Shown: in pieces, positions 23,720 to 24,211 of the stretch
Layout of the letters: each line of letters starts with the position of its first letter
Numbering within the stretch: position 1 is the first letter of the stretch
Assembly (NCBI GenBank): GCA_903854535.1
Contig: CAINWR010000003.1
Coordinates: 1 to 32,658 of the forward strand
Length of the DNA: 32,658 bases
Direction: 5' to 3'
Origin: Candidatus Staskawiczbacteria bacterium
Lineage (GTDB): Bacteria > Patescibacteriota > Minisyncoccia > Minisyncoccales > Staskawiczbacteraceae
The notes under the pieces: model-generated
What the model was told of the DNA's origin: nothing
Database searches by the model: none
Seen by the model: the letters and a program-made list of their open reading frames with translations, nothing else
Translations under genes and position numbers: made by a program

Positions 23720-23761
23720 TAGAAAAATTGAAGGGGCTAAGCAAATTGCTGTCGCCCCTTT
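23720..23761 (-). terminator. Terminator of minus-strand mini-gene 2
   Basis: AAGGGGC gac AGCAA t TTGCT ta GCCCCTT (23731-23760) then CAATTTTT on minus strand. Confidence 0.75.
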
Positions 23762-23808
23762 ATGAAAAATGGATACGAAAGAGCAGATCAATGGCCTCTT
23801 GGTTTTTG

Positions 23809-24017
23809 TGAGAAGTTACGGCCATCTTCTCAACCTGTTTATATTCTACCCAAACAGGAAAATGGCTTATGACAATCAATCTTTGATTGTCAAAAATCCA
23901 ATCCGACGCTTCCATGCGTCGTGGGAGTTCAACGACTCCCATGGCCACTTTAACGCCACCCAAGTGGTGTTTTCCTCGCAGTATCCTGCGAGGATTGGGA
24001 TGAACCGCGTGATGCGG
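23809..24017 (-). ncRNA. Candidate structured RNA: run of eight perfect stem-loops (may be wholly or partly coding)
   Basis: TGAGAAG/CTTCTCA, CCTGTTT/AAACAGG, GACAATCAA/TTGATTGTC, CGACGC/GCGTCG, TGGGAGT/ACTCCCA, CCACTT/AAGTGG, TCCTCGCAG/CTGCGAGGA, CCGC/GCGG in sequence. Confidence 0.45.
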
Positions 24018-24103
24018 AACAATCCGATGGCCACCGGTCGCCCTTCTTTCCCAATGTATTTGAACGAAGGAACGAATGCCTGGGTCACGATTTTCTTCAT
24101 CAT
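23876..24103 (-). CDS. Orphan SD-led small ORF (75 aa), possibly frameshifted relative to overlapping minus ORF 23760-23963
   Basis: AGGAGG (24110-24115) 6 nt before ATGATG; MMKKIVTQAFVPSFKYIGKEGRPVAIGLFRITRFIPILAGYCEENTTWVALKWPWESLNSHDAWKRRIGFLTIKD. Confidence 0.45.
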   Translation of the reverse strand: MMKKIVTQAFVPSFKYIGKEGRPVAIGLFRITRFIPILAGYCEENTTWVALKWPWESLNSHDAWKRRIGFLTIKD

Positions 24104-24182
24104 GGCAATCCTCCTATGGAAATAGTAGAGAGAACGGCTTGCCACAACCGTGCCCTCAAAACCGGAAATTCACTATATTTTA

Positions 24183-24211
24183 ATTATAGCATAATCAAGC
24201 AAGCTTGTCAA
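24183..24211 (-). promoter_or_regulatory. Perfect consensus sigma70-type promoter for minus-strand mini-gene 2
   Basis: Minus strand TTGACA-17 nt-TATAAT with TGc extended -10. Confidence 0.9.

Follow-up and report, generated by a model that had tools for sequence, protein, structure and literature searches.

A hairpin-packed small gene in Candidatus Staskawiczbacteria belongs to a family-wide class of GC-rich, Shine-Dalgarno-led units

The window analysed here, a stretch of 32,658 nucleotides from the genome of a Candidatus Staskawiczbacteria bacterium (Patescibacteria), contains an isolated transcription unit on its minus strand, to which all feature coordinates below refer. The promoter (24183–24211) is an exact consensus, with TTGACA and TATAAT separated by 17 nt and an extended −10 TG, and a DNA match across the organism's own genome (G000) returned five promoter-like sites besides this one. 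The 5′ leader (24104–24182), which extends ∼72 nt past the inferred transcription start, holds a hairpin read by eye as ACGGTT-GTGGCA-AGCCGT and carries a Shine-Dalgarno (SD) sequence, AGGAGG (24110–24115), 6 nt upstream of an ATG. This start codon opens an ORF of 75 amino acids plus stop (23876–24103), followed by a 3′UTR RNA module (23779–23867) and an intrinsic terminator (23731–23760), in which a hairpin with seven perfect outer pairs precedes a T run. The GC content of the element reaches 0.53, compared with 0.23–0.35 in both flanks. The original prediction had described an isolated unit of higher GC than its neighbours, and its promoter, terminator and AGGAGG-6-ATGATG are all exact. The promoter spacer (24195–24207) also contains an inverted repeat, CAAG-N4-CTTG, that is found in four other units (L014, L024, L028 and L031); overlapping promoters in this way, it is possibly an operator.

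The feature that first drew attention to the element was a chain of eight consecutive perfect stems, and every stem and loop length that had been given for it is correct. Over positions 23809–24017, a greedy count of perfect stems 6 bp or longer finds seven, with 52 bp in total; in 500 dinucleotide shuffles of the same segment the mean is 0.4 stems and 2.5 bp, and no shuffle exceeds 19 bp. The chain had also been called unique within the window, and among 1,082 windows of 209 nt more than five stems occur only where these overlap the element. Six of the stems (stem/loop lengths 9/3, 6/6, 7/6, 6/11, 9/4 and 4/5; 23871–24017) lie inside the ORF or at its end, the last overlapping the stop codon, and the remaining two form part of the 3′UTR module. 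The shuffled-sequence folding that had been proposed as a check gives a z-score of −5.6 for the whole transcript, with none of 100 shuffles equally stable, although this value, like the other z-scores and E-values in this work, rests on a modest number of shuffles. By region, the z-scores are −4.4 for the coding sequence, −1.5 for the 3′UTR and −0.9 for the 5′UTR, placing most of the excess structure in the coding part. When synonymous codons are shuffled within the ORF, which preserves both the protein and the codon usage, the 75-aa ORF still scores −4.8 in one run and −4.1 in another. The element folds equally well on its opposite strand (coding-sequence z of −5.4), so the case for selection at the RNA level rests on the class to which the element belongs and not on this member, for which a DNA-level cause is possible.

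The element is the mRNA of a small protein-coding gene, packed with hairpins, and not a stand-alone structured RNA. Frame 0 of the ORF is the best of six, and in a leave-one-out codon model, with 51 other class units as the training set, it scores 0.163 against 0.071 for the next frame, a modest margin; under the same model the correct frame comes out on top in all 52 class members. Sequence in common with the sister genome (G001) ends at the start codon and resumes just past the stop, beside unrelated ORFs. The protein itself is an orphan, with no homologue among 247 genomes of the order, phages, plasmids and viral contigs. At the gathering threshold, an Rfam search left the element unmatched, the sole match in the window being a tRNA, and the best element match in a relaxed search had an E-value of 0.99 and a score of 17.1 bits, where the gathering score is 50; a known structured RNA family, which the original prediction had suggested looking for, was thus neither found nor approached. 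That prediction had wavered between a structured noncoding RNA and a dual-function RNA. A coding or dual-function transcript with real structure stands, while a noncoding RNA with an incidental ORF is not supported, given the codon model, the UTR boundaries, the recognisable proteins of the class and the Rfam result.

The 3′UTR module, which is common to unrelated genes, consists of a hairpin (CCTGTTT..AAACAGG) and a likely H-type pseudoknot (23791–23832), TGAGAAG[ATGGCC]GTAA-CTTCTCA-CAAAAACCAAGA-[GGCCAT]. A covariance model of the module matches the window's own copy, three copies in G001 and one divergent copy in G000:C45 (E = 1.3e-4). In the four close copies, 90.9% of cells are paired, compared with 40–53% when the alignment is slid, and one pair is compensatory; in the divergent copy both stems are altered, yet by eye they are still complementary (AAAGCC/GGCTTT and GCAAC/GTTGC). 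The sister genome holds the 3′ element three times, trailing unrelated ORFs, and the 5′ leader once, in a copy of 89% identity (G001:C83) whose match ends at the start codon. Contig G001:C42 shares this terminator and the sequence downstream of it. Across the class, pseudoknots are found in 7 of 52 3′ regions against ∼0.8 in shuffles, and so are not universal, while leaders and 3′UTR hairpins recur beside unrelated ORFs at identities of up to 98–100% between species. One 50-nt hairpin element, TTTCTTTCAAA..TTTGAAAGAAGG, turns up in leaders as well as 3′ UTRs of unrelated units, with 92–100% identity across species (the L002 leader, the L086 leader and 3′UTR, and the L024 3′UTR). Judged by these matches, unrelated genes draw on the same UTR modules. 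The sites of the units also vary, as the FBA-flanking intergenic site in G001 is occupied by a different GC-rich unit and FBA in a congener (G002) has other surroundings and no adjoining GC-rich unit. Separately, the sequence GCTAGACACACTTTT, or its complement, interrupts GC-rich units L136 (G001:C6), L016 (G001:C42) and L017 (G001:C83) and runs on into identical AT-rich DNA in L136 and L016; it looks like the end of an insertion element.

The element is a member of a class spread across its family. The pattern TTGACA-N14-TGNTATAAT has 115 sites, spread over 26 of the 36 family genomes, compared with none for a reversed-pattern control, and most consensus-promoter sites are followed by a single GC-rich, SD-bearing ORF. 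The units are scattered, single-gene and mostly orphan, each with a near-consensus promoter, a strong SD and a GC-rich ORF. Of 81 promoter-defined units, 62 have an SD followed by an ORF 40 codons or longer, where local shuffles give 5.6 ± 2.6, and the spacing from AGGAG to the start is mostly 6–7 nt. These promoter-led SD ORFs have a median GC of 0.52 (5–95% range, 0.45–0.60) in a genome of 31–32% GC. The class is real and its ORFs are coding; the element shares the class's consensus promoter, SD and GC-rich ORF, with a codon-shuffle z below the native range. Searches of Pfam, PHROGs, PADLOC and NCBIfam with 65 class proteins returned almost nothing besides the recognisable families Csx20 and Band 7, while a census of SD-led genes in the one genome it covers, G000, adds CsrA, STAS, radical SAM and acyl-carrier domains. 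All of the genomes compared are MAG-based. One class protein family, that of L066 (homologues L216, L217 and L219; G000:C33:10798-11286), is present in 15 of 36 family genomes; its C-terminal 40 aa are repeated ∼460 nt downstream, with stops in two copies, in the manner of VR and TR, and the family looks like the target of a diversity-generating retroelement. Consensus promoters found outside the family mostly lack a GC-rich unit downstream. Some there precede apparent noncoding RNAs (L201–L203, also L185 and L190), of which we take the conserved RNA of L201–L203 to resemble 6S and that of L190 to be RNase P-like. The class appears to be undescribed, in that searches of an open-access library returned no earlier account of it, which is weak evidence of novelty.

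Across the class, mRNAs fold beyond what protein and codon usage require. For 62 class ORFs, the mean codon-shuffle z is −2.28 in the sense orientation and −1.57 in antisense (paired p = 2.5e-4). By comparison, 56 Escherichia coli segments of equal GC have a mean z of −0.50 (Mann-Whitney p = 8e-9 against the class), and native genes of the same genome score −0.44 in the window and +0.09 in a sample of AT-rich ORFs drawn from 391 kb of that genome. Orthologues behave similarly over short distances: a 66-aa set from three congeners has an alifold z of −3.7 when codon columns are permuted, while native FBA orthologues lie between −0.3 and +0.5 under the same null, which preserves cross-species codon conservation (a version that broke such conservation was set aside). 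A pair of the diversity-generating-retroelement type is borderline, at −1.95, +0.57 and −1.83 in three segments, and alifold found no conserved helices in the distant homologue pairs L046/L122 and L055/L063. We read this as selection for folding in itself, in which individual helices persist over short distances only. Given the distant pairs and the borderline case, any shared function of the structure would be generic, and its purpose is a guess.

The translation signals of the class present a paradox. The 3′ end of the organism's own 16S rRNA (GTGGATCATATTTTATAAAA, ...GGAAGCTGCTCGTGGATCATATTTTATAAAA), from the one 16S gene found in G000, does not contain the anti-SD CCUCC, which is also missing from the 16S of G002, these being the two genomes in which the 3′ end was seen within the genus, and from the 16S of three further families in the order. 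An earlier study (PMC10783764) documents that other Patescibacteria have lost CCUCC and describes, as here, 16S without an anti-SD and few SD genes overall. The SD-bearing minority in our case is non-random, being a GC-rich, strongly promoted and structured single-gene class, and a class of this kind is not described in the consulted parts of that source. Its introduction gives Bacteroidota rpsU (bS21), which is SD-led although its lineage avoids the SD. There, too, a few genes use the SD against the habit of the genome, whereas here many unrelated orphan genes are involved and the anti-SD is missing, not hidden. Among native AT-rich genes, an SD is found in 2% in one count and 3.7% in another, which is the background level; the second count, over stop-to-stop ORFs, has many frames and starts of GC-rich genes wrong and so undercounts these genes. 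Low-GC ORFs follow AGGAG about as often as they follow control motifs of the same composition. SD-like sequences are also kept in orthologues from three congeners, most weakly in G002. With an SD in 62 of 81 units, mostly at a spacing of 6–7 nt, and with this retention, the class SDs look like signals in use, and yet they seem to be unreadable by the cell's own ribosome. The start codon of the present element is predicted to be largely paired, a poor fit with efficient translation by an SD-less ribosome, and class start regions are less accessible than native ones (AUG unpaired probability of 0.41, n = 52, versus 0.51, n = 15). A shortage of tRNAs as a sign of foreign translation was rejected, since the genome has 45 tRNA genes, a full set with many C34 anticodons; the cell is therefore able to decode class genes, which counts against a purely host-directed use. 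An apparent counterexample is a 16S with an anti-SD in G006 (L246, G006:C33:2476-3948). We discounted it, since it has an archaeal-looking 5′ end and failed to align with the organism's own 16S; L246 probably comes from a contig contaminating that MAG. The 16S genes of G000 (L243, G000:C25) and G002 (L244, G002:C15) carry large insertions at different positions, ∼520 nt and ∼870 nt relative to each other, which are probably introns.

Taken together, the element is probably a strongly promoted monocistronic message for a 75-aa orphan, belonging to a lineage-specific accessory class that is written in a foreign, SD-type format and has selected mRNA structure. Under this reading, the consensus promoter would drive strong transcription, and the hairpin chain would be a generic selected property of the transcript with no one specific fold. 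Folding would probably make the message long-lived and nuclease-resistant, and the hairpins would probably also mask internal start sites, leaving initiation dependent on the leader and SD. The SD-type format itself would be shared by accessory genes retained over long periods.

It is possible, if less likely, that the units are ordinary genes of SD-using, GC-richer donors (hosts, phages or plasmids) that arrived by passive horizontal transfer and kept their original signals. Transfer into Patescibacteria is common (PMC12455944), and the units are GC-rich, patchy and mostly orphan, with Csx20, CsrA and STAS among them; the window's own ORF is in no relative, and the FBA-flanking site in G001 holds a different unit. 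A narrow GC range, shared codon usage, promoter spacers typical of the genus and UTR modules reused across unrelated genes point instead to long residence, and promoter, SD and fold are kept in orthologues at ∼78% mean column identity. GC-matched genes of foreign type, from E. coli, are also without comparable folding, and the queries tried gave no viral or plasmid match. A viral origin was considered and rejected, as the promoter pattern and two proteins are absent from viral contigs and the window's own protein is absent from phages and plasmids.

A cause at the level of DNA is doubtful. Template-switch correction of quasi-palindromes, or mobility as folded single-stranded DNA, would account for stems that are perfectly Watson-Crick and foldable on both strands, for the negative antisense z of the class (−1.57) and for units that are modular, single-gene and site-variable. 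Integron gene cassettes offer a likeness here, in their modular single-gene units with common flanking elements and variable cargo, although in the present class each unit has its own promoter, leader and terminator and the units are scattered. Against both versions, the sense strand folds more than the antisense (p = 2.5e-4), and native genes of the same genome have no such excess.

Expression directed at a host is unlikely. The sigma-70 polymerase and anti-SD ribosomes of a partner bacterium would express the units after delivery of DNA or RNA, and folding would silence them in the symbiont, whose own ribosome has no anti-SD. Agrobacterium T-DNA consists of genes written in the recipient's expression code, and by analogy the class could be a gene repertoire in the partner's code, with consensus sigma-70 promoters, strong SDs and GC-rich codons, folded to be silent or stable at home and expressed by the partner after transfer, a bacterium-to-bacterium counterpart of T-DNA. 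We regard that extended version as quite unlikely; the likeness applies to this alternative only and extends to recipient-code genes, and here no borders were found. Consensus promoters and textbook SDs with their spacing, in a cell with no anti-SD, SD-poor native genes and less accessible class starts (0.41 versus 0.51) are all consistent with host-directed expression. Patescibacteria also carry conjugation-type T4SS (PMC12102498), which makes delivery conceivable and nothing beyond, and relaxases are missing from most of those clusters (PMC12102498). Further, a delivery signal was not found, no host is known, the full tRNA set allows decoding in the cell itself, and the Csx20 and CsrA members suggest roles in the cell.

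A CsrA regulon, with AAGGAG retained as a CsrA (ANGGA) site and not as a ribosome-binding site, is very unlikely. The genome does encode CsrA within an SD-led GC-rich unit (Pfam E = 1.5e-25; L170:3073-3267, G000:C32), partial CsrA relatives lie in loci of two other genera (one at L120:1763-1900, G019), and ANGGA falls within 47 of 68 SD windows. Leader GGA outside the SD is not enriched, however, with 66 seen against 79 expected, and we rejected CsrA target status on that count; the spacing from AGGAG to ATG is also fixed at the SD optimum. Finally, a stand-alone ribozyme, riboswitch or sRNA with an incidental ORF would suit the extreme fold and the isolated unit, but is hardly credible given the codon model, the SD, UTR boundaries at the start and stop codons, protein-coding class relatives and no Rfam match.

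If, as we favour, the element belongs to a retained accessory class with selected mRNA structure, then one small symbiont genome splits in two, with AT-rich, unstructured, SD-poor native genes on one side and GC-rich, hairpin-packed, SD-led accessory genes on the other. This split occurs in a cell whose 16S has no matching anti-SD, which raises a sharp and testable question: which ribosome reads the class genes? The class provides naturally occurring coding sequences whose mRNA folding is apparently under selection, and it suggests that many orphan genes of Patescibacteria may be accessory cargo expressed in a format of its own.
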